Shown here: in pieces, positions 1,995 through 57,600 of the stretch | How positions within the stretch are numbered: position 1 is the first letter of the stretch | Layout: the number at the start of each line of letters is the position of its first letter | Assembly (NCBI RefSeq): GCF_002775205.1 | Contig: NC_036454.1 | Span: 1,092,382 to 1,156,381, forward strand | DNA: 64,000 bases | Reading direction: 5' to 3' | Origin: Xiphophorus maculatus | Taxonomy: Eukaryota > Chordata > Actinopteri > Cyprinodontiformes > Poeciliidae | Program-made: the position numbers and the translations under genes | Notes under the pieces: model-generated | Databases searched by the model: none | Told to the model about the DNA's origin: nothing | What the model saw: the letters and a program-made list of their open reading frames with translations, nothing else

Positions 1995-3034
1995 TGTTAA
2001 GGAAATATGGCTATTTTTGATTGTTTAATATAGTTAAGCTAATGCCATGTGTGTTTAAGTAGATCAACATTCCTATTTGGACAAACTGAGGCAAGCTAAA
2101 CGATCAGAGATAAACATTCTCCTGGCAGGGTTGTAACTTAGAGCAGCAATAAAACACAAAGCTCTTGAAAGGCTTTAAATTAGTAGGCCATAAAGAATAT
2201 CTTCCCCGGCTCACAGGTCAGAGGTCAGGGGTTTCCCAGGAGCTCAGAGCTGCATCTGGAGTTGATCACAACTTAGGAATTTTGGGAACACTTAAGGTTT
2301 AATTTCTGATATACCTTTTAATATTGGTAGTAATAGTGTGTTAGATTAAAGTATATTACCCAAGCTACAAGTACTAATCTAGTAAATCGAATGTATTTGA
2401 AAATGTACTAACTATGACAATATCGGAATCAAAAGAGAATGATTTGAATGTTATGTTTTACAGGTTAAAAAGACTTCTATCTCATTATTGTTTGTGATAA
2501 AGCAAAGGGTCAAATCTTTGGAGAAGCTGACTGCAGAGGAGCAAGATAGGTTTTGTGAAAATAACTTATAACTTTAATAACTAAAATGACTCTTGATATT
2601 TGTCATTAAAACTCAGGGGAAGGTCTAAGTTTTTTTCCAAGGTCGCTCTTGGTTGGTCAAAACAGAGGTACGCCCTATTTGCATATATTAACAAAGAGAA
2701 ACGCCTTCCCTAGAAAAAGGGAATGCGCAACAATAAAATTCAGACAACTGTCCTGTTATGCTTTTAAGCAACAGCTGTCTCCAAAGGATCCTTTGTTCTT
2801 TTTAATTCTTTTGTCTCAGGTAAAGAATGTATTTTTGTACTCTGAAGTTTTCTTGTTAAATTCATACGGTGTTTTCTATTGAATTAAACTCTGTATCTCT
2901 GTGACATCATCGAGCCTCGCCGTCTGTTTTTTCCAGCCGTGACGGCATCCGCTTGCGATCCGGGCTAACAGGAGGAAAAGAGAGCCATGCTTTTTTCAAA
3001 ATTTAAGCTAACCTAATAAATTTCCTCCTTAATA
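1995..3034 (+). repeat. 5' LTR (1040 bp)
   Basis: The LTR starts TGTTAAGGA and ends TCCTTAATA, an imperfect inverted pair, and does not have the usual TG...CA ends. It matches 13158-14197 along its full length; the only difference noticed is C at 3025 against T at 14188. An octamer-like ATTTGCAT lies at 2677-2684 just before TATATTA, and a CRE/ATF-like TGACATCA at 2902-2909. AATAAA occurs at 2732 and at 3015. U3/R/U5 limits cannot be fixed from the sequence alone. Confidence 0.93.
3015..3020 (+). terminator. Candidate poly(A) signal near the LTR 3' end
   Basis: AATAAA stands 15 bases before the end of the LTR. The copy at 14178-14183 in the 3' LTR would serve for proviral transcripts. A second AATAAA at 2732-2737 (and its 3' LTR counterpart) is an alternative. 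Confidence 0.5.
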
Positions 3035-3055: not shown

Positions 3056-3902
3056 CGGATTCTGAGCGAGCGGCTCCGTCACGCGCTGGCCCGGTTCGGC
3101 TCGAACGCTACAGTCGGGTAAGACTCTTTGATTTGTTTCCGTGTCTGCGACACGTGGACGATCGGTGCTGACTGTTTTGGTGTGTGACTACAGGGATGGA
3201 AAACTGCAGATGTATGAAGGTACTTCTAAAAGACTTTGTTGTTAATAGATTTGAATAGACACAGGAACAGAGGACCGTGGCAGGTCCAAGCAGTCGGATT
3301 AACGTTACCGCTGTTATAAGGCTAGGTTTTAAGTGAATTTTTCCTGAAGGCTTATTTCTGTCCCTTCGAAAAAATTGGGAAAGTTTGTGTCTGGGTTGAA
3401 TCACCTTTTCTGTGGTAGAATTAAGGACTAAAAGCAGGTTGAATCACCTTTTCTGTGGTAGAATTAAGGACTAAAAGCAGGTTGAACCACCTTTTCTGTG
3501 GTAGAATTAAGGACTAAAAGCAGGTTGAATCACCTTTTCTGTGGTAGAATTAAGGACTGAGTGCACCCGGGTAAAATGATGCATCTTATATTTTTGTAAC
3601 CGGCGCCGGGTTTATATTTTCTATTTTATTTCCCCCCCTGTTTTTTCTCAAAAACTGTGTTCTGTGTCTATGTGTTTCTCTGTGTTTCTTTGTGTTTCCC
3701 TGTGTGTGGCGATCTGTGCTTGTTGCCGCGACACGAGGCCGTTTGACTGTGCAGAGCTCTGCTTGTGTGTCTGTGTGGCCGTGTGTGTGCGCGTGCGCGA
3801 GTTCGGGCTGGCTGTGTGTTTGAGCGGAGTGTTAAGTTGTTTGAAAAGCGCTGTGTGTGTGCTGATTTGCGTTGTTCCTGCTGTATTTATTCTAATATAA
3901 AT
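3056..3902 (+). other. Retroviral leader: splice donor candidate and 43-bp tandem repeats
   Basis: This 0.85-kb leader contains a good splice donor candidate (cgg|gtaaga, GT at 3118) for env mRNA and four copies of a 43-bp unit at 3395-3558. At 3650-3870 there is a GT-rich tract of TGTGTCTGTG type. An in-frame ATG at 3765 would add 46 low-complexity residues to Gag, but nothing supports its use. Packaging signals are expected here but were not identified. Confidence 0.6.
3395..3558 (+). repeat. Four tandem copies of a 43-bp leader repeat
   Basis: Each unit begins gttgaatcaccttttctgtg and ends actaaaagcag. Copies start at 3395, 3438, 3481 and 3524; the third has gttgaacc and the last is cut at 3558. 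The copies are almost identical, as expected of a recent expansion in the viral leader. Confidence 0.9.
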
Positions 3903-6128
3903 ATGGCAACGGTGTTGCGGAGAGATGACACTGCTCATTCGTATGGTTTAGGTCCGTGGACGACACTACGGGAACAGATTGCTGACTTCATTAATATTTA
4001 TGACAAACAACTTGGTCTGGATTCGCTTCATGTGACGGCGGATGAATTGAAAGACAGGTTGGAAAATGCGGTCAGCATGAACAATGAACTCCTAAGTGCT
4101 GAAAAGCCGTTAGGTTTAATTTTGAATGCCTGTCTAAATCAGGCTTCAGCTGATAGGGATGCGGTGCGTGGTGAACAGGATGGGGCTACTCTGTTTCGCA
4201 GAAAGAAACTAATTAAGAAGTTGGAGAACGTGGAACAGGAGAGACAGTTGTGGGCTAGACTTCTGGTGGGTTGGCAGGGGACGGATCACCTTTATGGAAA
4301 GGGTTCGGTTACGAAGGCTTCGGACTCATTACACGCCCCGGTTGATCTTTCGGGGGTTTCCTCTGACCGGCCGAAACAGAAGTTTAATCCATCTGTTGCT
4401 TCGCTCCCGCCTCCATATAATGACACTAATCCCTCTTGCACGGGGCTGTATCCAGTGTTGGATGTTCGGAGGGGCACAGCGGAATGGGATCTTCTGAGGG
4501 TTCCTCCTCAGAGTTCTTCTGCTCCACTGGCGCGGGAGGATCCCGATTTAATGACGCCATGCCCGGCGTCCCCTCTTGGTGTTCGCTCTGTTTCTGATAG
4601 TCTTCCTATGGCGGATCGGGTTCAACGTGAAAAATTTTGTTTTTCTAGATATCCTTTGGCGACTTCTTCAGGTGTGGCTCAGGTTTCACGTCAGTTCAGC
4701 AGCCCTGCACCTCCCTTAGTCTCTCCCTCAGATGAGGGGGAGCAGGGGGAGGTTCAGTTGAATGTAGATGTGTCACTGGTTGGCCGTCTGGTTGAGGAGC
4801 CCCCACCCATTCGGGGAAACTCAGTGTCTTCTCCTCCTGTTTTGAAAGATGATGTGAAGTTTACCTCCGCACCGATGCAGCTTCGGAGCGGACGTAATCT
4901 GTGTGACATGCAGAGAAGGGATGTTAGTCCCTCCCCTCGTGAGATGAGCACACCACGGAGAGGCGGTGCCACCTCTAATGCTGTTGCTTTTCAGGAACGA
5001 CTTTTAAGTTTAGGCAGGAAATCACAGGGGGGTATGGATGATAGGGACACAGACCTTTCAAATAGATCGGTTCATTCTGAGGCTCTGTCAGCAAGTTCTG
5101 ACAGTTCTTCCCATTATGCTATGCCTTTAATAGTTTCCCACCAAGGACACAGATACAAGCCGTTTTCTTTTGGAGATTTACAGACCCTTATTGAAAAATT
5201 ACCATCTTTGGTGGACGGTGCTACTCCTTGGTTACATGCATTAGAATCACTGACAGGGGGGTTGACCTTAGCATTGGGGGATTTCAGGGCAATTTTGAGT
5301 CGTTCAACAACGACAACAAATTGCCGTGATGTTGAGCTGTCAGCGGGAACTATGCACTGCCCTGATGAGACGCCTCTTACAGCTGTTCTGACTCCTGTGG
5401 GTGCGGCCTTGAGGGATATATTTCCCCCTTTGTCGCTGTCACTTATTCCAAAGTTTTTCTGGGATTCCAAAGAACACCCAAAAGTATTTTTAGATAAAGC
5501 CATAGATATCTGGAGGCGACAGTCTGGGGTTCATCCAGCTGTTGCTACATTAATGAGGGAACATTTTCGTCAAGCTGTTTTAAATGGTGTCCCTACTTCT
5601 GTCGCTGCTTCAATGGGGACAAACCCGGAGTTGAGATCTTGTGACCATGCGAAGTGGGAATTGCATTTGTTGCATAATATGCAGATTTTTCAGGATAAGG
5701 AGAAAGAGAAGGAGAGAGAGCAGGAAGATCTTAAGAATCAATTATTGAAACTTCAAATAGGAGAAGCTAAACAGAAAATTAATCTTGCAAAACAGGAACG
5801 ACAGGAGGTTAGAGCTATGTTGGCAGCTGTTGCACGGGCTCCTCTTCCGGTGTTTCATACTGGTCCTGGTGTGTCAGCTCCACATTTTCGGTCTGGTCTT
5901 CCGGGGTGGCGTGGGGGCAGACGGGGTAGGCCTGCAGTGTCGGTCGCGCGAGGAAGGGGTGGACGCAGAGACAGGTGTTTCTATTGTGGGGAGGAGGGTC
6001 ACTGGGTTCAACAGTGCCCTCACTATATATCAGATGGTGCGTTGCCGGACCTGACATCACAACAAACTCCGAATGCTGCATTGCTTCCGCAGCGCCCGGG
6101 ACAGGTTTCTCAGGCTGGACAATATTGA
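3903..6128 (+). CDS. gag: Retroviral Gag polyprotein
   Basis: The structural polyprotein has 741 codons from ATG 3903 (MATVLRRDD). This start was preferred to the in-frame ATG at 3765 because the upstream part is cysteine- and arginine-rich translation of a GT-repeat leader. A late-domain motif PPPY stands at residues 169-172. A long proline/serine-rich middle region follows. A capsid-like segment spans about 410-590. A charged coiled-coil (KEKEREQEDLKNQLL) covers about 595-645, an Arg-Gly-rich box about 665-690, and one CCHC zinc knuckle (CFYCGEEGHWVQQC, 692-705) gives nucleic-acid binding. No matrix myristoylation glycine is present at position 2 (M-A-T). The frame ends with UGA at 6126-6128 and pol continues in the same frame. 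No breaks are seen. Confidence 0.92.
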   Translation: MATVLRRDDTAHSYGLGPWTTLREQIADFINIYDKQLGLDSLHVTADELKDRLENAVSMNNELLSAEKPLGLILNACLNQASADRDAVRGEQDGATLFRRKKLIKKLENVEQERQLWARLLVGWQGTDHLYGKGSVTKASDSLHAPVDLSGVSSDRPKQKFNPSVASLPPPYNDTNPSCTGLYPVLDVRRGTAEWDLLRVPPQSSSAPLAREDPDLMTPCPASPLGVRSVSDSLPMADRVQREKFCFSRYPLATSSGVAQVSRQFSSPAPPLVSPSDEGEQGEVQLNVDVSLVGRLVEEPPPIRGNSVSSPPVLKDDVKFTSAPMQLRSGRNLCDMQRRDVSPSPREMSTPRRGGATSNAVAFQERLLSLGRKSQGGMDDRDTDLSNRSVHSEALSASSDSSSHYAMPLIVSHQGHRYKPFSFGDLQTLIEKLPSLVDGATPWLHALESLTGGLTLALGDFRAILSRSTTTTNCRDVELSAGTMHCPDETPLTAVLTPVGAALRDIFPPLSLSLIPKFFWDSKEHPKVFLDKAIDIWRRQSGVHPAVATLMREHFRQAVLNGVPTSVAASMGTNPELRSCDHAKWELHLLHNMQIFQDKEKEKEREQEDLKNQLLKLQIGEAKQKINLAKQERQEVRAMLAAVARAPLPVFHTGPGVSAPHFRSGLPGWRGGRRGRPAVSVARGRGGRRDRCFYCGEEGHWVQQCPHYISDGALPDLTSQQTPNAALLPQRPGQVSQAGQY

Positions 6129-9100
6129 CACACCCCGGTGAAGAACCTATGTCAGGGAGCTTTGGCAGATCCCCTGATTGATGTGACAGTGGATGGACAA
6201 ACATTACCATTTTTGGTGGATACAGGGGCAACATATTCCACCATGAATGCTGTCATACCTTCACATAAACTTTCTGATCAGACAATATCAGTGGTTGGTT
6301 TTTCTGGGGTGAAACAGACTCTGCCACTCTCCACGCCTCTGCACACGGCTGTGGGCAGACAGAAAGTGACACATCCTTTTGTATGCTCCCCCTCATCTCC
6401 CGTTAATTTAATAGGGAGAGACTTGTTGATTGCTCTGGGGGCAACTATTTTGTGTGGGCCTGATGGATTACTTGTCACTTTTCCTGATGGATCGTCTCAC
6501 GCCTGTTCTCCGGTTTATACTCATGGACAGTTTTTGCTGCAACAAGCTGAGGAGCAACTGGCTGACATATACTGGGGGCGTATACAGCCGGAAAAGACTG
6601 ACCATGCTGGAATACTATCTTGTTTTCTGCTTTGGAAGCCCTGGATTCAAGCGCTTGCTCCGTATGGTCCGACCCCTGATCTGCCCCATGTTACTTTGTT
6701 TTATGACCGAGACCAGACTGAATGGTTCCAGGAGCAGTTTGAGACACATTTAGCCGGTGTTGACTGGACTGTATTTTCACAGGACATTTATGTGGCACCG
6801 GAGGGGGTGGCTGCAGCTGTTAATCTGACTCAAGATCAGTCGTTTTGGTATAAAATGCAAGACGAAGCTGTTCCACATATTTCTTTGGCTCTCCATCCTG
6901 GCCATCAGGCCATGGAACTAGGGGGCGTGGTAAAGCGCTCCCTGGCGGTTTCAGACTGGCAGGCAACTGTTAATACAGACCTCTTTTTCTCTCCTTCTAC
7001 AAACACCTACAGAATAAAGTGTTCCGCTGTAGATTCTGTAGTTTTGGAACATCTTCAACTTCCTAGGCACCATGGCAGGGAGTTGACTGATCATCCAACT
7101 GCAGCTGCTATGTTGGCTTCTCTGCCTGAATGTCTGTGGGCAACAGGTCCTACAGATGTGGGGCTTGTTGTTGTCACACCTGTCACCTTTGATTTGCGAC
7201 CAGGCCCTCCTATTTGGAGGTCTCAGTATCCTCATAAGCAGGCGGCAGAAGAGGGACTGGCGGAAACAATTGGGGGTCTTCTGGAGGCTGGTGTGTTAGA
7301 ATCTTCCACCTCTTCCTGGAACACTCCTATTTTACCAGTTGAGAAAAAAGGGACGGGTAAATACCGCATGGCACATGATCTCCGGGCGATTAATTCTGTT
7401 TTATTGACCCCTACGGTGCCAGTCCCTAATCCTCATGTTGCATTAACTAACCTTGATCCCTCTCAGACTTGGTTTTCCTGTGTGGACCTTGCTAACGCTT
7501 TCTTTTGTCTCCCATTGGCTGAGGAATGTCGGGACGTGTTTTCTTTCACCTACGGGGGTCAGCAGCTGAGATATACACGTTTGCCTCAGGGTTTTGCTCT
7601 CTCCCCAGGGCTTTTTAATCAGGTTTTGAAACAGCAGTTGGCAGACTGCTCGTTACCAGACGGTGTGACTCTGATTCAGTATGTGGATGACCTCATGCTT
7701 GCAGCGCAGTCGTTGGAGTCTTGCATTGAGGCCACGCGACGTTTACTGTCACACCTTGCTGACAGAGGTTTTAAAGTGAGCAGGTCTAAATTGCAAATTG
7801 CACGGAAGCAGGTTTCTTTCTTGGGGCGGTCTATCACTGCGACTGGCACTCAGATGTCTGCCAGTCACAAATCTGCTATTCTTGATCACCCTAAACCACA
7901 CACGGTGAAAGACATGCTGTCCTTTCTTGGTTTGACTGGATATAGTAGGAACTATGTTCCTAACTATACTGGTTTGACGGACCCTTTACGGGCATTAGTC
8001 AGGGAGCATGGGACTCGTAAGCTCAACCAGGTTTTGACTTGGACTGTGGAGGCGGAAGATGCTTTTATCTCTTTGAAACAGCAATTGGCTGCTGCTGCCC
8101 AGTTGGCTGTCCCAGATTATGCTTCGCCCTTTTATTTGGATGTTTCTGTTACAGAACTGACGGTTAATGCAGTTCTGTTTCAGAAAAAAGGGGGAGACAG
8201 GAGAATCCTCCAATATGTCAGCGCAATGTTGGATCCGATGGAAAAAAGACATCCGACATGTACAAGACATGCAGCAGGTGTGGGAAAAATGATTCAAAAG
8301 ACAGCACACATTGTGATGGGTCATCCATTACAGGTTATGACATCACACAGCGTGGTGGCATATGTGAATTCACAACATTTCACATTAACTACATTGAGAC
8401 AACAAAAACTGAGCAAAATTCTGGAATCACCTAATATAACTTTTGTGCATATCGGAGCGAATATGGCTGACAGGATGCAAGATGGACAGCCACACAACTG
8501 TGATGAATTAGTACTGAAGGAAGAAAAGATAAGACCGGACCTACAAGCTTCTCCTCTAGAAGGTCAAGATGTGAAAAACTTTTATACAGACGGTTGCTGT
8601 TTTAAACATGACACAGACGGTTTGAGAGCAGCATATGCGATAGTGGAAGACTTGGGCAGTGAGTTTCGTGTTTTGAAGGCAGAAAAGCTGCAGGGTGCCC
8701 AATCGGCACAGAGGGCAGAAGTAAAAGCAATGGTCGAAGCACTGAAACTGGCTGAGGGAATGAGGGTGAATCTTTACAGTGATTCAGCTTATGTGGCTAG
8801 CGCTGTACATGTGGAACTTCCTCAGTGGCTCAGAGCAGGATTTTTGACTGCAACACAGAAGCCCATAAAACATGAAACTGAAATGAAAGAATTGGCGGAG
8901 GCATTACTGTTGCCTCAGTCTGTGGCTGTGATTAAATGCAAGGGACATGATCAGAGCAAGACCAGAGTTGCAGCAGGAAACGCAGCCGCGGACGAGGCCG
9001 CTAAGAGGGCAGCGGGATACCTGACATCTCTTGTGATGGTGAGTACTGAACTTGAACAGGTCGAACAAAATCACTTTGAAAAAATTATTTCTCACCAGAA

Positions 9101-10304
9101 AACCGTGTCACCTGAGGAACGATCAGTCTGGAGAGCAAGAGGTGCCGTCTGCAATGAAGGACTCTGGCGGGGACCAAATGGTAAAGTAATTCTTCCTCCA
9201 AATATGAGATTCCAGGTTTTCCAGGAAGCTCACGGACTCGGACATGTGGGTATTGCACAGATGCTAAAAAATCTAGAGCACTGGTGGCATCCATTTTTGA
9301 GAGACATGGTCAAGGAATATGTGAAAACATGTGAAATTTGTGGACAACACAACGCAAAACCAACTATTAGGCCACCAGTGGGACATTTCCCTTGTACTAC
9401 ACAACCGGGTAAGGAAATAATTATTGATTTCACAGACATGATAACACCCGTCAGAGGATACAGGTATGTATTAATGTGCGTGGATGCATACTCGGGCTGG
9501 CCAGAGGCGTGGCCAGCAAAAAAGGAGGACAGCAAAACTGTCATAAAGTGTCTGATCAATCATTACATTCCGACCCATGGATTTCCAGAGAAGGTGAGAT
9601 CAGATAACGGCACTCATTTTAGGAACCAAGATCTGCAGAGAGTGGAGCAGCTGCTTGGATTGAAGCATTCTTTCGGTACAGTATATCATCCTGAGTCACA
9701 AGGCAAGGTTGAGAGGTTGAACCAAACTATCAAACAAAAATTGGCCAAAGTATGTGCACATACCAAATTAAATTGGGTAGATGCCTTGCCTATTGCTTTG
9801 ATGTCTGTTCGAATGTCTATTAATCAAACAACAGGGTTCTCTCCATTCGAGCTCCAGACCGGGCGGATTTTTCCAGGACCTGGGAGTCGCGTACCTGGAT
9901 GGAAAGGTGAACTTGCACATTTATCTCATAAAGATTTCTTTACTGAGTTACAGAGTCTGGCTGCGGAATTTGCAAAATACCAGACGGCACAGGAGCGTCC
10001 AGCTTCAGGACCAGTTCCAGGAATCGACTGGGTGCGCCTGAAGGTCATCAAACGGAAGTGGTCTGAACCTCGCTTCACCGGACCACACCGAGTAGTGGAG
10101 AGGACGTCCCATGCTGTTCGTCTACAAGGGAAAGGAGACACCTGGTTTCATTGGAGTCAGTGCACAGCAGCCGAGGAGCCACAGCGTGCGCTCCGAGACG
10201 TACAAGACGAGCTTCGACTTCAATCTTCGGACGAGGAGCAACGCCAGGCGCTTCCAGGAGGGAGTGTAGCAGGAATTCCTGCCACAACCACTTCAGGTTC
10301 CTGA
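6129..10304 (+). CDS. pol: Retroviral Pol, same frame as gag behind a single UGA
   Basis: The open frame follows the gag UGA directly, so Pol is presumably made by stop-codon readthrough. Residues are counted from the GTG at 6138. Protease: LVDTGATYS, 27-35. Extra domain with HVTL (184) and HISL (247), described separately. Reverse transcriptase: LPQGFALSP about 482-490 and QYVDD 514-518. RNase H: YTDG with D about 817, E861, SDS with D882, and a last D about 952. Integrase: HHCC zinc site H1032, H1036, C1065, C1068, then catalytic D1097, D1156, E1192 with 35 residues between the last two. A GPHRV tail of GPY/F type lies about 1315. All catalytic residues are present and no stop or shift interrupts 1388 codons. 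Activity is likely from sequence but unproven. Confidence 0.95.
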   Translation, partial: HTPVKNLCQGALADPLIDVTVDGQTLPFLVDTGATYSTMNAVIPSHKLSDQTISVVGFSGVKQTLPLSTPLHTAVGRQKVTHPFVCSPSSPVNLIGRDLLIALGATILCGPDGLLVTFPDGSSHACSPVYTHGQFLLQQAEEQLADIYWGRIQPEKTDHAGILSCFLLWKPWIQALAPYGPTPDLPHVTLFYDRDQTEWFQEQFETHLAGVDWTVFSQDIYVAPEGVAAAVNLTQDQSFWYKMQDEAVPHISLALHPGHQAMELGGVVKRSLAVSDWQATVNTDLFFSPSTNTYRIKCSAVDSVVLEHLQLPRHHGRELTDHPTAAAMLASLPECLWATGPTDVGLVVVTPVTFDLRPGPPIWRSQYPHKQAAEEGLAETIGGLLEAGVLESSTSSWNTPILPVEKKGTGKYRMAHDLRAINSVLLTPTVPVPNPHVALTNLDPSQTWFSCVDLANAFFCLPLAEECRDVFSFTYGGQQLRYTRLPQGFALSPGLFNQVLKQQLADCSLPDGVTLIQYVDDLMLAAQSLESCIEATRRLLSHLADRGFKVSRSKLQIARKQVSFLGRSITATGTQMSASHKSAILDHPKPHTVKDMLSFLGLTGYSRNYVPNYTGLTDPLRALVREHGTRKLNQVLTWTVEAEDAFISLKQQLAAAAQLAVPDYASPFYLDVSVTELTVNAVLFQKKGGDRRILQYVSAMLDPMEKRHPTCTRHAAGVGKMIQKTAHIVMGHPLQVMTSHSVVAYVNSQHFTLTTLRQQKLSKILESPNITFVHIGANMADRMQDGQPHNCDELVLKEEKIRPDLQASPLEGQDVKNFYTDGCCFKHDTDGLRAAYAIVEDLGSEFRVLKAEKLQGAQSAQRAEVKAMVEALKLAEGMRVNLYSDSAYVASAVHVELPQWLRAGFLTATQKPIKHETEMKELAEALLLPQSVAVIKCKGHDQSKTRVAAGNAAADEAAKRAAGYLTSLVMVSTELEQVEQNHFEKIISHQKTVSPEERSVWRARGAVCNEGLWRGPNGKVILPPNMRFQVFQEAHGLGHVGIAQMLKNLEHWWHPFLRDMVKEYVKTCEICGQHNAKPTIRPPVGHFPCTTQPGKEIIIDFTDMITPVRGYRYVLMCVDAYSGWPEAWPAKKEDSKTVIKCLINHYIPTHGFPEKVRSDNGTHFRNQDLQRVEQLLGLKHSFGTVYHPESQGKVERLNQTIKQKLAKVCAHTKLNWVDALPIALMSVRMSINQTTGFSPFELQTGRIFPGPGSRVPGWKGELAHLSHKDFFTELQSLAAEFAKYQTAQERPASGPVPGIDWVRLKVIKRKWSEPRFTGPHRVVERTSHAVRLQGKGDTWFHWSQCTAAEEPQRALRDVQDELRLQSSDEEQRQALPGGSVAGIPATTTSGS
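6585..7037 (+). other. Extra Pol domain between protease and RT, 2H-phosphoesterase-like
   Basis: About 150 residues (Pol 150-300) separate the protease from the RT start. They contain two motifs of the form PHxT/S followed by hydrophobic residues: PHVTLFY with H at 6687-6689 (residue 184) and PHISLAL with H at residue 247. Paired HxT/S motifs 60-90 residues apart are the signature of 2H phosphoesterases (LigT, AKAP7, coronavirus ns2 families), which act on 2'-5' or cyclic phosphodiester bonds. The spacing of 63 is at the short end. In other retroviruses dUTPase can occupy this site, but no dUTPase motif is seen. Assignment rests on motifs alone. Confidence 0.5.
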
Positions 10305-10951: not shown

Positions 10952-13037
10952 ATGGGGTTCATCTTAAGATACATGAACTGGGAGCGGAAGTTTTTGCTGG
11001 GTGTGTTTCTTGAACTCAATTTGCTGGGAATGTGGGTTTGCGGAGGATCCACGAGTGGACTCATTTCCTCACAGACACTTAATCTCCGACCGAGTTTTGT
11101 CGAGTGCGGAGTGTCTTGCGGAAATGCGACTGTTCGTGTGGAGCGTTCTTTGAGACCTCCTGTTGATAAGTGCCTCACTAAATATCGTGGGATTGAGTTG
11201 AACTATACTCTGGGTACTGTAACTAATTATCAAATTGATCTGTGTGAGGTAATTCGTCGCTGCTGGTCGACCCCTCAATCCTGGCAGAAGACGTCTGTGT
11301 ATTTGTGTGGTGATCTGACCTTCCAGCGACATTGTATTACTCAGGAAACTGGGATTCGACACTTGTGTCCCACTTGGAAATCGGCCTTCAGATGGGTGGG
11401 ATCAAGTTGGAGTCCACCGTATGCTCATAAATCTGTCACTGAATATGACAAGGTTACCATAAGAAGAGGGACTGTAAGACATTCTCCAGCGACGGGTAAA
11501 AATCCTTTGGTGTTAACCATTTCCTCGATGCACGATGTTTTCTTTAAACAGTATCCGGCAGATTCAGCTGTTTATTTGACTCTAGGTGCTTCAGTGGACG
11601 ATAAAGATCCACTTGGGGTTATTAAAATTAATATGGTCAGACCTGAGGGGGAGGAAGACAGGGATATGGAAATTCCGGATCAGCATGCGGCTAAGATTGA
11701 CTACACAGCAGTTTCACCATTGGACATCATTCAAACAGCGACTGGGTATAGGGAAAAAAAACTTATGGCTGAATTGGATGGTTCAAACGGCTAAGGAAAC
11801 TAATATTGGGAACTGCATTGCATGTGCTACAGCTCGACCTCATTTGTTTACTGAGCCTGCCCCATTACACTTGGGAGATAGTTGGGGTTTTAATTGCATG
11901 CTGAGGTTAACAACTGAGGCAGATCCCGTAAATTGTGATGCGCTTGCCAAAATATATCCACCTATTAATAACTATACTCAGACGGGAACTTTTCTTCCGG
12001 TTAAGGGTAAAGGGTTGTATGTGTGTTTTAATTTTACTCATCTTAAGCCCGATTTCAATCTAGGACAGATTTCTAGTGATTGGTGTAATGTTACTTTGAC
12101 AGCGGCCGGAATCGGGAGTTGGGCAAGAGCTGGACTTTATTATTTTTGTGGGGGTGATAGATTATATGTGCGTATTCCTCCTAAGACTGTTGGAGTATGT
12201 GCCATGACTCGCCTGGCTGTGCCACTTATGGTTGTGGGAGAAAGACTTGATCCTGTAGGACCGGAGCAGGTGCTCACCTTACAGACTCAGAGGCACAAGA
12301 GACAGGTGCGTAATACACGTTTTGATACTGCATTTGATTTGACTACTAATTCTCCCACTTATGTAGATGCCATCGGCGTGCCGAGGGGGGTCCCGGATCA
12401 ATATAAATTGGCGGATCAAATTGCAGCAGGTTTTGAAAATATACCGGTGTTATCAGCTCTTTTTCCTATCACGCCGAATAAAAATATTGATAGGATAAAT
12501 TATGTCCATTATAATCTTTTGAGGCTAGCGAATCTAACCAGGGATGCTGTTGGGGGTTTGAAGGAGCAGTTAGCTCCTACTTCTTTAATGACAATTCAAA
12601 ATCGGATGGCGCTGGACATGCTGTTGGCCGAAAAGGGTGGAGTCTGTTTTATGTTCCAAGAGAGCTGCTGTACTTTCATTCCGAACAATACGGCCCCTGA
12701 TGGATCTGTCACTCGAGCGTTGGAAGGTTTGAGAATTTTGAGTAACACTATGCATGAACATTCAGGTATTGATGGCGGCTTGGACAGGTGGTTCTCTACT
12801 ATGTTTGGTAAATGGAAAGGGATTGTTATGTCATTGTTGGTTTCGGTGGCTACGTTTGTGGCCATAATAGTCACATGCGGATGCTGCTGTGTTCCGTGTA
12901 TACGCTCGCTTATTATTAGGCTTATTGCAGTTTCAATTGAGAAGGGGAGCAGCGGCCCACCACCGCCACCGCCCTATCAGATGCTTTTTAGGGGAGCTGC
13001 TGATGGGGGGGTTGTGGAGCTGGGCGGTTCTATTTGA
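10952..13037 (+). pseudogene. env: Retroviral Env, gamma type, broken by a frame change
   Basis: The surface part starts at ATG 10952 with a hydrophobic leader (LLGVFLELNLLGMWV) and runs 280 codons to a stop at 11794. The rest is open in the next frame (11586-13037), and homology passes from one frame to the other at an 8-A run, 11754-11761. The second part has CIAC, a furin-type site RHKR at 12291-12302, the CX6CC motif (CFMFQESCC) after an immunosuppressive-like QNRMALDMLL segment, a membrane span about 12822-12900, a Cys cluster CGCCCVPC and a tail with PPPY and YQML. No strongly hydrophobic fusion peptide follows RHKR directly, which is unusual. The role would be receptor binding and membrane fusion. 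As read, no full-length Env is encoded. A sequencing error in the A run is possible. Confidence 0.85.
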
Positions 13038-13157: not shown

Positions 13158-14197
13158 TGTTAAGGAAATATGGCTATTTTTGATTGTTTAATATAGTTAA
13201 GCTAATGCCATGTGTGTTTAAGTAGATCAACATTCCTATTTGGACAAACTGAGGCAAGCTAAACGATCAGAGATAAACATTCTCCTGGCAGGGTTGTAAC
13301 TTAGAGCAGCAATAAAACACAAAGCTCTTGAAAGGCTTTAAATTAGTAGGCCATAAAGAATATCTTCCCCGGCTCACAGGTCAGAGGTCAGGGGTTTCCC
13401 AGGAGCTCAGAGCTGCATCTGGAGTTGATCACAACTTAGGAATTTTGGGAACACTTAAGGTTTAATTTCTGATATACCTTTTAATATTGGTAGTAATAGT
13501 GTGTTAGATTAAAGTATATTACCCAAGCTACAAGTACTAATCTAGTAAATCGAATGTATTTGAAAATGTACTAACTATGACAATATCGGAATCAAAAGAG
13601 AATGATTTGAATGTTATGTTTTACAGGTTAAAAAGACTTCTATCTCATTATTGTTTGTGATAAAGCAAAGGGTCAAATCTTTGGAGAAGCTGACTGCAGA
13701 GGAGCAAGATAGGTTTTGTGAAAATAACTTATAACTTTAATAACTAAAATGACTCTTGATATTTGTCATTAAAACTCAGGGGAAGGTCTAAGTTTTTTTC
13801 CAAGGTCGCTCTTGGTTGGTCAAAACAGAGGTACGCCCTATTTGCATATATTAACAAAGAGAAACGCCTTCCCTAGAAAAAGGGAATGCGCAACAATAAA
13901 ATTCAGACAACTGTCCTGTTATGCTTTTAAGCAACAGCTGTCTCCAAAGGATCCTTTGTTCTTTTTAATTCTTTTGTCTCAGGTAAAGAATGTATTTTTG
14001 TACTCTGAAGTTTTCTTGTTAAATTCATACGGTGTTTTCTATTGAATTAAACTCTGTATCTCTGTGACATCATCGAGCCTCGCCGTCTGTTTTTTCCAGC
14101 CGTGACGGCATCCGCTTGCGATCCGGGCTAACAGGAGGAAAAGAGAGCCATGCTTTTTTCAAAATTTAAGCTAACCTAATAAATTTCTTCCTTAATA
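13158..14197 (+). repeat. 3' LTR (1040 bp)
   Basis: It is the same length as the 5' LTR and nearly identical (T at 14188 where the 5' copy has C). AATAAA lies at 14178-14183. It is followed directly by the CTAC target copy. Confidence 0.93.
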
Positions 14198-14201
14198 CTA
14201 C
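14198..14201. repeat. 3' target-site duplication of the ERV (CTAC)
   Basis: Matches 1991-1994 and marks the return to transposase coding sequence. Confidence 0.9.
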
Positions 14202-15816
14202 CCTACCAAAAGATGGGAGAACATTGCTTGGAACACCCAGAAATGTGCCCATCACTACAATTCAAGGGGGAGATTATTATCATTTTGGAATAGTCAAAGG
14301 GGTGCTTTCACGGTTGGCATGTTTGTGTGTACCATCAACTATGACTACTATTAATATCCAGTTTAATATAGATGGCTTACCTTTATTTAAAAGTTCCAAA
14401 CTTCAGTTTTGGCCCATACTTGGATGTCTGACATGTGACTACACAAAGTCCCCATTTGTTGTAGGCATTTTTTGTGGTCTAAGCAAGCCAGTGAGTGTTT
14501 TTGAGTACCTGGCTCAGTTTGTCAAAGATCTTCAGAATGTATTGTGTAATGGCATTATTTATAATGGTAAGCAATTTAATGTAGAAATTTCTGCCTTTAT
14601 TTGTGATGCGCCGGCAAGAGCTTATATTAAGCAGGTCAAAGGATTCAATGGCTATTCAGGTTGTGACAAATGCTTTCAGGAGGGTGTATGGATGAATAAA
14701 ATGACATTTCCTGAAACAAAGCATAAACTTAGGACAGACTCCAGTTTCTCTGACATGGTTGATGAGGAACATCACATTGGAAAGAGCCCTTTATCTGGTT
14801 TAGTTAAGATGGTTTCTATGTTTCCACCAGATTACATGCATGTCTGTTGTCTCGGAGTTACAAGGAAAATGCTTCATATATGGTTAAAGGGGAAACATTT
14901 AGCAACAAAGTTTCCTTCCCAAACTGCAGCAGGCATTTCAGATAAACTCCTAAAGCTACGTTTCTACACGCCTTCTGAGTTTAACCGTAAACCAAGGGGA
15001 CTGTCGGAGATAGATCGGTGGAAAGCTACTGAGTTCCGATCCTTCATGTTATATTGGGGTCCTGTTGTTTTGAAGGATTCACTCCCCAGTGAGCTGTATG
15101 ACAATTTTATGTTGTTTTCCGTTGGAATGTACATGTTGCTGTCCCCTAGTATATCTGAGGAAATGTTAGCCTTTGCACAAAAGTTGATGGTTGCTTTTGT
15201 TGAACACTTTGGGGAATTATATGGAAAAGATGAAATTGTGTACAATATACACCAGCTTACTCATTTGGCTGAAGAATACAGGAGGTTCGGCAATCTAGAT
15301 AATATATCAGGATTTCCGTTTGAGAATTGTCTTGGTCAAATTAAGCATCTTCTACGCAAGCCACATCAGACACTACAACAGGTAGTTAAAAGGTTGTCTG
15401 AAACCTCACATGTTGGACCCACATGTTCTAGAGATTATCCAAAGTTGCTTAACATCCACATTGATGGTCCAGTCCCCACACAGTTTATTTCGTCACAACA
15501 GTACAGGAAGGTCTCCACTCATCGGTTTACTTTGTCCACAAAGAAAGGAGACAATTGTGTTGAAGTTGGAGATGGATTTGCATTAATAGAGAATATTATT
15601 AAATCAGAAGAGGATACATATACAATCGTCAGAATGTACGGACACAAACAGCCATATTACATGTATCCCTGTGAATCATCATACATTGGCACATACAAAG
15701 TCAGTGGCTTGAAAGAAAATATAGGGGTAGTTGGACTGGCCTCTATCAAGCGCAAATGCCTTCTCTGTCCAGACATGGATGGTGCCATTGTAATACCACT
15801 ACTTCATTTAGCATAG

Positions 15817-34600: not shown

Positions 34601-37600
34601 TTTACCAGTATTTTATTTAATCTGATTACTTGATTAATCTTAAGAATAATCGATAGATTACTCGATTACTAAAATATTTGTTTACAACAGACCTAGTGAA
34701 CACCTGAGTGAGAGATATGAAAAATATGTTCAAATATGTTCAATATGTTCTTTTTGGTCCCTCGCTCGGCTGCTTTCGATCAGTTTGTGCCTGTGACTGT
34801 CGCACTTTTAGAGGACGCGGTTGGCCATATTAAGCCATCAGGCTCCCCTCGTGATCCTGTCCCTCCACGATTTTTTAAAGATATCTTATCTAGCATAGGG
34901 CAGCCTGTTCTTGCAATTATAAATAGCAGTCTGTCATCAGGTGTGGTCCCTGCTAGTTTTAAACATGCAGTAGTGCAACCACTGCTTAAAAAACCTGGCC
35001 TTGATCAAACTGTTCTGGCTAATTATCGGCCTATTTCGAAGCTGCCTTTTCTTTCTAAGGTTTTAGAAAAACTTGTGTACTGTCAGCTGTAACAGTTTTT
35101 AGATTACAATGGCATTCTGGAGGTTTTCCAGTCAGGTTTTAAAACTCTTCATAGCACAGAATCTGCTTTAATAAGAGTTTTTAATGACATCCTTCTTTCA
35201 TGTGATTCTGGTAACCATGTTGTTCTGATTTTACTTGACCTAACTGCTGCCTTTGATACAGTAGACCACGACATTTTAATATCACGATTATACCACGTTG
35301 TAGGTATTGGTGGCACTGTTCTTAAATGGTTCAGGTCTTACCTGGAGGAGAGAACAATCTCGGTCAAGATTGGTGACTCTGAATCATCTACTGCTTCAAT
35401 GCCTTATGGCGTCCCACAGGGCTCCATTCTGGGCCCACTGCTTTTCTCTCTTTATTTACTGCCTCTGGGTTCTGTCCTCAGAAAACATGGGATTTCGTTT
35501 CATTGTTACGCTGATGATTGTCAGATTTATTTGCCCCTGAAGCAAAAGGATGTACATTCTATCAAACATCTCCTGGCATGTCTAGGTGATATTAAAGCTT
35601 GGTTGGCCTTGAACTTTTTAAATTTTAATGAAAACAAAACAGAGGTGATGGTGTTTGGACCCAGTGGCTCCTGTGAGTCCTCCTCTGTTGACCTGGGACC
35701 CTTGGAGGTTTATTTTAAACCTGTTATTACAGATCTTGGTTTTAAGGTGGACAGTGATTTTAAATTGGATAGCCAAATCAGAGCCGTGGTTAAGTCCAGC
35801 TTTTATCATTTAAGGCGATTGGCGTCAGTGAAATCTTTTCTTTCCAGGCAGCATTTTGAAACAGTGATCCATGCTTTTATTTCAACTCGATTGGATTACT
35901 GTAACGCACTTTATCTGGGAGTTAGTCAGTCGCTGCTCTCACGTCTGCAGCTAGTACAGAATGCTGCTGCACGACTGCTGACAGGAACTCGAAAGAGGGA
36001 ACACGTGACCCCTGTCCTGGCCTCACTTCACTGGCTGCCGGTATATTTTAGAATTCATTTTAAAATTCTTATGTTTGTTTTTAAATCACTACATAATCTT
36101 GCCCCGGCTTACCTCTCTGAGCTTCTTCACCCATACATACCTTATCGGTCTCTTAGGTCCGCAGATCAGCTGCTTTTGGAGGTACCGAGATCAAGAAGGA
36201 AGCTCAGAGGGGACAGGGCTTTCTCTGTCATGGGCCCCAAATTATGGAACAACTTGCCTTTGCAGGTCAGGGAGGCCCCTTCACTGTCCACTTTTAAAGC
36301 TCGTCTTAAAACCCATCTATTTTATTTGGCTTTTAACTCTAGCGGGATCTAGTTTTAAACTGTATGTTTTTTTTTTTTTTTTTTTTTTTTGTTTTTTTTG
36401 TTTTTTTTTGTTTTTGTTTTTAAACTGTAAGTTTTTATTTTATGTTTTTTTTATTGTTATGTTGTGTTTTGATGTACAGCACTTTGTATCAGCTGTGGTT
36501 GTTTTAAAGTGCTTTATAAATAAAGTTGGTATGGTATGGTATGGTAACCCAACCTGTTTTAAACTTGGACTGTTCCCCCTCATCTTGGAGAAATATTGTG
36601 TCTTTAAATAAGCCAATATTTTGTGCCTTTTGGCTGGATTTCCACATCCAAGATGAGAATTTTCTATATTTTCCAGTCATTATAGATTATAGATTGATGT
36701 ACGTTTTAAACCTGTAACGATATATCTCTGTCCCCTGATCCCCAACCTACTCTGAGTGCATCCATCCAAAAAGAAAACTATTTACATGAGCCATGAACGT
36801 TCCTGTCATGTAAATGAAAAAAAACTATATGAAAAATAAAAAACAACTTAGAACCTACTCTACTGCTGCTGTCTGCGGCAGCTGAAGAGAAAACAGGGAT
36901 AACTAAGAGAAAAACCCCTATGAGGTCGGTGGACTTTCGCTCTGAGAGTCACAGATCTAGAGTCACAGATCTAGAGTCACAGATCTAGAATCACAATGTT
37001 TATGATGACAGAGAGCTCCGCCTCCCGACCGTCGGACCCAGCGTCTCCTATGGGGCCCCTAGGAATGACATCAGTCGGTTGAATTTGGGGTGTCCTCCCC
37101 CTGTTCGTTCTCCAACAGGTGTTCTGTTTATCTGTGCTACCCGTAAATCCGTCCTACCTTGTGGTGATGCGCACATGGATGCTTCGTCACATAGGGTCAC
37201 CCTACCCTAACCCACTGTGGAACCTGTGGAGGTTTGGTTTCATGTGTTTTATTTCAGCGCAGATTACGGTAAGTTTTATTTCATTTATTTTATTCCTGGT
37301 TTTCATTAAGCTGCTGAATTACTTCATGGTTTTATTTTACATGACAGCAGCTTGTAAATATATTTAGAAATGGTTTTAGTTTGCTGTCTGCAAAGTCGTA
37401 AGAAAGTTATTGTTCATCAGGACAAAGTACGTTGTTTTTTGGGCTATTTTGTCCTTATGCTTTAAAATATTTTAGTTTAATTACACTCTTTTTTATGATT
37501 AAACTTTGCTAAACAGAAGTTAGCGATAATAAGTGGGACTGAAGCTGTAATAGCCGTGTAATATTAGTGTATATGAATCATATCCTATCATTTCAGTGAC

Positions 37601-56329: not shown

Positions 56330-57600
56330 TTGATTATGTTTCCATAGCAACTCCAACCAGCTTTGTTTAGCCTGAAAGAAGCTCAGGGTTTCAGCAGTTT
56401 TCCAGTTTTCTGGAAGTTTGTTCCAGATCTGTGGAGCATAGAAGCTCAATGCTGCTTCTTCATGTTTGGTTCTGGTTCTGATGTAGAACCAGAACCAGAA
56501 CCAGCAGGTTGATCCAGCAGCAGTGATGTATAAACTACCAATGAAGGACTGTAGAACCGGGTGGTGTAGAACTAGATGATGTAGAACTAGATTATGTAGA
56601 ACTGGGTGATGTAGAACTAGATGATGTAGAACTGGGTGGTGTAGAACTGGGTGGTGTAGAACTAGATGATGTGGAACTGGGTGGTGTAGAACTGGGTGGT
56701 GTAGAACTAGATGGTGTAGAACTAGATGATGTAGAACCGGGTGATGTAGAACCGGGTGGTGTAGAACTAGATGGTGTAGAACTGGGTGGTGTAGAACTGG
56801 GTGGTGTAGAACTAGATGATGTAGAACTGGGTGATGCAGAACTAGATGATGTAGAACTGGGTGGCGTAGAACTGGGTGATGTAGAACTAGATGATGTAGA
56901 ACTAGATGATGTAAAAGTGGGTGGTGTAGAACTAGATGGTGTAGAACTAGATTATGTAGAAGTGGGTGGTGTAGAACTAGATGATGTAGAACCGGGTGAT
57001 GTAGAACCGGGTGGTGTAGAACTGGGTGATGTAGAACCGGGTGGTGTAGAACTAGATGATGTAGAACTGGGTGGTGTAGAACTGGGTGATGTAGAACTAG
57101 ATGATGTAGAACCGGGTGATGTAGAACCGGGTGGTGTAGAACCGGGTGGTGTAGAACTAGATGGTGTAGAACTGGGTGGTGTAGAACTGGGTGATGTAGA
57201 ACTAGATGATGTAGAACCGGGTGATGTAGAACCGGGTGGTGTAGAACTGGGTGATGCAGAACTAGATGGTGTAGAACTGGGTGGTGTAGAACTGGGTGGT
57301 GTAGAACTAGATGGTGTAGAACTGGGTGGTGTAGAACTGGGTGATGCAGAACTAGATGGTGTAGAACTGGGTGATGCAGAACTAGATGGTGTAGAACCGG
57401 GTGGTGTAGAACTAGATGGTGTAGAACTGGGTGGTGCAGAACCAGATGGTGTCTCTATCCTCCTGGTTCTAGTCAGAACTCCAGCAGCAGCGTTCTGGAC
57501 CGTTGGGTTGTCAATCAGACCTGTGAAGACGCTGCTGCAGGAATCAAAGCCTGGATGAGTTTCTCTGATCTGAGTCTTTAGTCTCTGGTTCTGGAAATGT
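56330..57600 (-). repeat. L2/CR1-like LINE fragment, copy 2, with internal minisatellite
   Basis: Both flanks match 25440-25890 closely (gcagatctgtggagca..., agaaccagaaccagcaggtt, gtctctatcctcctggttct). The minus strand again reads [20 protein letters not shown]. Between the flanks the few 15-bp units of the other copy have grown to about 60. Confidence 0.75.
56555..57450. repeat. 15-bp minisatellite, about 60 units
   Basis: Units alternate among gtagaactgggtggt, gtagaactagatgat and gtagaaccgggtgat. As the period is a multiple of three, long open frames exist on both strands, for example VELGGVELDDVEPGDVE on plus and [15 protein letters not shown] on minus. There is no independent sign of coding. 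Confidence 0.95.

Follow-up and report, generated by a model that had tools for sequence, protein, structure and literature searches.

The dUTPase of betaretroviruses and non-primate lentiviruses is an extra enzyme domain in a retroviral polyprotein, unrelated to the enzyme considered here and located at another position, and we know of no counterpart of the latter's pol-encoded function in mammalian or avian retroviruses. Fish viruses offer closer comparisons. 2H domains of fish retroviruses, including walleye dermal sarcoma virus (WDSV), are already in print, as stated in a passage of PMC9503650 citing Mazumder et al. 2002, and CNPase, which in animals opens the cyclic phosphate of nucleotides, is described in additional reading frames of epsilon-like fish endogenous retroviruses (ERVs) in the relevant section of a review (PMC4977317, citing Basta et al. 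2009). Here, an ERV of Xiphophorus maculatus, located in a 64,000-nucleotide stretch of contig NC_036454.1 (positions 1,092,382 to 1,156,381, forward strand; hereafter the window), was found to carry between the protease and reverse transcriptase (RT) of its Pol a domain that is almost certainly, by fold and type, a CNPase-type 2H phosphoesterase. The first-pass annotation of this DNA, which knew of no description of such a domain, is contradicted on that point by the two records above, and the domain is a further, well-supported example of a recorded enzyme kind. In contrast to the epsilon-like elements, whose CNPase-like gene lies in additional frames by the review's description, the domain is here part of the pol frame, and what is added is its assignment to the CNPase type together with a comparison of active sites. 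Term searches detected no mention of CNPase or phosphodiesterase in PMC2684134, PMC8672886, PMC7599744 and PMC6001957, nor of phosphodiesterase, the only term sought there, in PMC3185748, and in three scans of IMG/VR no locus could be confirmed.

The domain extends from about 6558 to 7064 on the forward strand (Pol residues about 141-309), as delimited by structure prediction, CNPase-family fold matches and profile alignment with hhalign. The range proposed initially, 6585-7037, lies inside these limits and is slightly short; it translates open and includes the two motifs on which the proposal was built, PHVTL and PHISL. Their histidines lie at positions 184 and 247 of Pol, 63 residues apart, with codons beginning at 6687 and 6876, so that the motifs proper, H184-V-T-L and H247-I-S-L, occupy 6687-6698 and 6876-6887 (forward strand). 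Searching the pol open reading frame (ORF) with Pfam placed RVP upstream and RVT_1 downstream of the stretch, with no family matching the stretch itself at E<=0.1. The Hh[ST]h pattern occurs at three sites in Pol (184, 247 and 747), and a motif pair 45-110 residues apart turned up in 28 of 20,000 shuffled versions of the domain and in 76 of 3,000 of the whole Pol. By itself, the pair is only moderately surprising, not overwhelming; it is conservation and fold that decide. A chance motif was ruled out by conservation across relatives and by the predicted fold.

Ten Pol-length homologues were found, and all of those with a species name are from fish; the closest among the matches listed, a Xiphophorus hellerii protein, is 89% identical across the stretch. 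A profile combining the window's domain and nine of these ten homologues, designated A1, retrieved a further 44 proteins of shorter length at E<=1, including many fragments, for a total of 54 with the ten homologues. Among these, the first H-x-[ST] motif is retained in 41 of the 42 proteins covering the site, the second in all 45, and both in 34 of the 35 spanning the two sites; the histidines are thus not lost in most relatives. Identity between this copy and nine homologues (P0003 left out) is 50-60% for the domain, against 70-78% for RT and 61-69% for RNase H; for the protease, which seven of the nine include, it is 55-69%. The domain appears to evolve faster than the polymerase with its active site retained, and there is a reasonable likelihood that it represents a regular part of Pol, between protease and RT, in one lineage of fish ERVs.

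The AlphaFold model of A1 residues 6-174, deemed confident, displays a two-lobed 2H fold with an extra N-terminal strand starting at about 6558 and an end at about 7064. The best-ranked fold matches, above all other rows listed, are CNPases, with 11-13% identity in the structural alignments, and the predicted fold agrees with the 2H fold expected from the motifs. Directly after the strand bearing the second motif, the model contains a helix (A1 residues 123-135; 6909-6947, forward strand) that is the counterpart of CNPase helix alpha7, an element described as missing from other 2H enzymes in the relevant part of PMC4643303. Fold matches in BFVD included Q2VF30 (TM 0.81, 27% identity) and, for the extra domain only, walleye epidermal hyperplasia virus 1 (WEHV-1; TM 0.68) and WDSV (TM 0.65), whose 2H domains share the fold with the Pol domain at 17-18% identity. 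The records of these walleye viruses, Q9WHI8 and A4GTG3, show the matching fold under the label 'Envelope polyprotein', so that this label is mistaken or those viruses carry the domain at another place.

In sequence, the kinship is remote, in contrast to the strong fold signal. A CNPase set of 99 catalytic domains was assembled from the best 120 of 224 found plus the mouse query, from which 24 sequences less than 80% identical formed a profile; the ERV profile comprised 35 domains. Aligning the two with hhalign gave a probability of 89.8, an E-value of 1.8e-6 (one-profile search) and a score of 46.6 over 91 columns, to be compared with a maximum of 22.5 and a mean of 14.0 for 200 column-shuffled CNPase profiles and 15.9 for the reversed profile. 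In HMM searches at E<=10, 98 of the 99 CNPases and 34 of the 35 ERV domains were matched, but scores did not exceed 19.7 and 13.5 bits. Of the 10 A1 members, 8 were matched by PF13563, the general 2H model (best E 0.014), and one by a galactoside-binding lectin model (E 0.16). Among PDB sequences, 14 of the 16 rows obtained with the A1 profile are CNPases; the single sequence gave unrelated rows only (best E 0.97), and NCBIfam gave no match. When the CNPases were ranked by the ERV profile (98 of 99 matched), ray-finned fish and frog sequences filled most of the top places and goldfish RICH came 43rd, an order that only hints at a possible donor. The viral domain also differs in context from its cellular counterparts, being placed inside Pol behind the protease, whereas many CNPases have a kinase-like PF13671 before PF05881.

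Residues were matched to CNPase using the hhalign alignment together with the enzyme descriptions in the pertinent sections of PMC3290555 and PMC4643303. Both catalytic H-x-[ST] pairs are retained. The counterpart of the ribose-contacting Tyr168 is Y10, a tyrosine in 39/39 rows, although this match rests on a weak global alignment; that of the base-stacking Phe235 is F53 (F in 39/42 rows, Y in 3/42). Positions corresponding to Pro225 and Pro226 are proline in 37/42 and 32/42 rows and read T and P in this copy, and that of Gly324 is G in 46/49 rows.

Several observations weigh against a CNPase-type enzyme. The histidines are 63 residues apart, compared with 79 in the catalytic domain of vertebrate CNPase and fish RICH (PF05881), and neither Arg307 nor Val321 of the latter has a counterpart: at the Arg307 offset, counted from the second histidine, A or V occurs in 39/44 rows with no R among the types shown, and the Val321 position is K in 45/50, R in 4/50 and M in 1/50, the M being that of this copy. 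One protein, P0035, has its first motif altered or lost, and the domain as a whole is less conserved than RT. PF05881 matched only 2 of the 10 A1 members (best E 0.057), as did the unrelated XisH (2 of 10, best E 0.072), and the window's own domain sequence matched no Pfam family, PF05881 included, even at E<=10; the domain is therefore named CNPase-type rather than a CNPase. When a global alignment was forced, the hhalign probability fell to a weak 10.4, and it is this alignment that pairs Y10 with Tyr168. The best CNPase in the search of PDB sequences with A1 had an E-value of only 0.32, tied with a dynein chain, and BLASTP of the window stretch against goldfish RICH (E 0.008) placed the second motif out of register. 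The residue pattern suggests a domain that is probably a working cyclic phosphodiesterase with an altered substrate cleft, and catalytic competence as such is likely.

The best explanation overall, with a probability of about 0.6, is that of a CNPase-type 2H domain expressed at Pol level and having cyclic-phosphate chemistry. Since the domain sits in Pol behind a stop codon, its synthesis would depend, like that of Pol, on ribosomes reading through the end of gag, and it would be predicted to reach the particle in the amounts of Pol, either released by the protease or retained in Pol. Such packaging seems rather more probable than its absence. By analogy with CNPase, as described in part of PMC3290555, the second histidine would activate a water molecule for attack on a 2',3'-cyclic phosphate, with the first protonating the leaving 3' oxygen, to yield a 2'-phosphate. 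A cyclic-phosphate substrate is favoured, the candidates being RNA 2',3'-cyclic phosphate ends or the cyclic nucleotides that ribonucleases leave behind. Such ends are produced by the metal-independent RNases found in conflict systems, as noted in a section of PMC9503650, and the viral enzyme might alter or clear them in the core or in the newly infected cell, or undo host cleavage. Any precise benefit assigned to the virus would be doubtful. It may tentatively be proposed that a fish retrovirus lineage has fixed a packaged CNPase-type Pol enzyme that acts on RNA ends early in infection and has a cleft unlike that of host CNPase. The provirus is young, its reading frame crosses the domain without a stop, the model is confident and conserved relatives occur in several fish; the use of such an enzyme to a retrovirus could be tested with one small protein.

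The first-pass annotation had related the domain to the 2-5A-cleaving enzymes of coronavirus ns2 and rotavirus VP3, which would make it a 2'-5' oligoadenylate phosphodiesterase blunting the OAS/RNase L defence. These proteins share the superfamily and the type of H-x-T/S pair, coronavirus proteins do occur among the weak fold matches, and other viral 2H proteins are proposed to act on 2-5A in a passage of PMC9503650. Yet the fold matches to coronavirus proteins are far weaker than those to CNPases, the closest folds (rat coronavirus ORF2: E 0.016, TM 0.43), and some teleosts are reported to be without OAS genes in the portion of PMC2852836 concerned. Kinship with ns2 and VP3 is not upheld, and a 2-5A activity is improbable, given that CNPase is the nearest subgroup and that teleosts lacking OAS genes are on record; the domain is more likely to act on 2',3'-cyclic phosphates than on 2-5A. 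AKAP7 and VP3 are absent among the fold matches listed, which does not exclude them. An equally improbable role is the breakdown of a cyclic dinucleotide (2'3'-cGAMP, for example) to the detriment of STING signalling, in the manner of the phage 2H protein Acb1.

Slightly less improbable, though still unlikely, is a non-enzymatic role as a Pol spacer or binding module, or as a decoy related to host CNPase. The changed Arg307 and Val321 offsets would suit such a role, as would the report, in the relevant part of PMC5434554, that host CNPase binds Gag and inhibits the assembly of primate lentiviruses (HIV), a finding on which the present domain bears. Against it stands the retention of the paired H-x-[ST] motifs in nearly all the relatives that span them, even though the domain is so divergent among the nine homologues.

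The provirus is present in the window with both of its ends. Its 5' long terminal repeat (LTR) spans 1995-3034 (the exact repeat covers 1995-3024 and the remainder was read from the sequence) and its 3' LTR 13158-14197, both on the forward strand, as are gag, pol and the pol domains below; the flanking duplication CTAC lies just before the former (1991-1994) and just after the latter (14198-14201). With 1,039 of 1,040 bases equal between the LTRs, the provirus is a young, recent insertion. Located 3' of the 5' LTR, TGGGGGCTCG resembles a tRNA-Pro primer site. The gag ORF, with a zinc knuckle, occupies 3765-6128 (ORF list and Pfam) and ends in a TGA stop at 6126-6128, with pol following in the same frame at 6138-10304, counted from the first listed start codon. 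Within pol, Pfam identified the protease (RVP, 6168-6449, E 1.1e-11), RT (RVT_1, 7341-7826, E 6.8e-28), RNase H (8577-9014, PF00075 as two overlapping pieces with E 1e-13 and 9.7e-5) and the zinc-binding and core regions of integrase (9195-9692; PF17921, E 5.6e-12, and PF00665, E 5.8e-15). The env region (10952-13037) is composed of two overlapping open frames in different frames: 11586-13037 is the sole env frame with a Pfam match (TLV_coat, E 8.1e-8), and 10952-11794 had no match in Pfam, NCBIfam or PDB sequences. In the leader between the 5' LTR and gag, a tandem repeat with a 43-base unit (3.8 copies, 98% match) occurs at 3394-3558.

Outside the provirus, an open frame of 530 residues lies immediately 3' of the 3' LTR (14224-15816), with no Pfam match at E<=0.01. 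Another, of 317 residues (35399-36352), encodes a partial reverse transcriptase (RVT_1, E 3.6e-13) and probably derives from another retroelement. Finally, a tandem repeat with a 15-base unit in 59.5 copies (56550-57442) falls within open frames of both strands, and the weak pentapeptide-repeat matches obtained there are probably due to the repeat itself.
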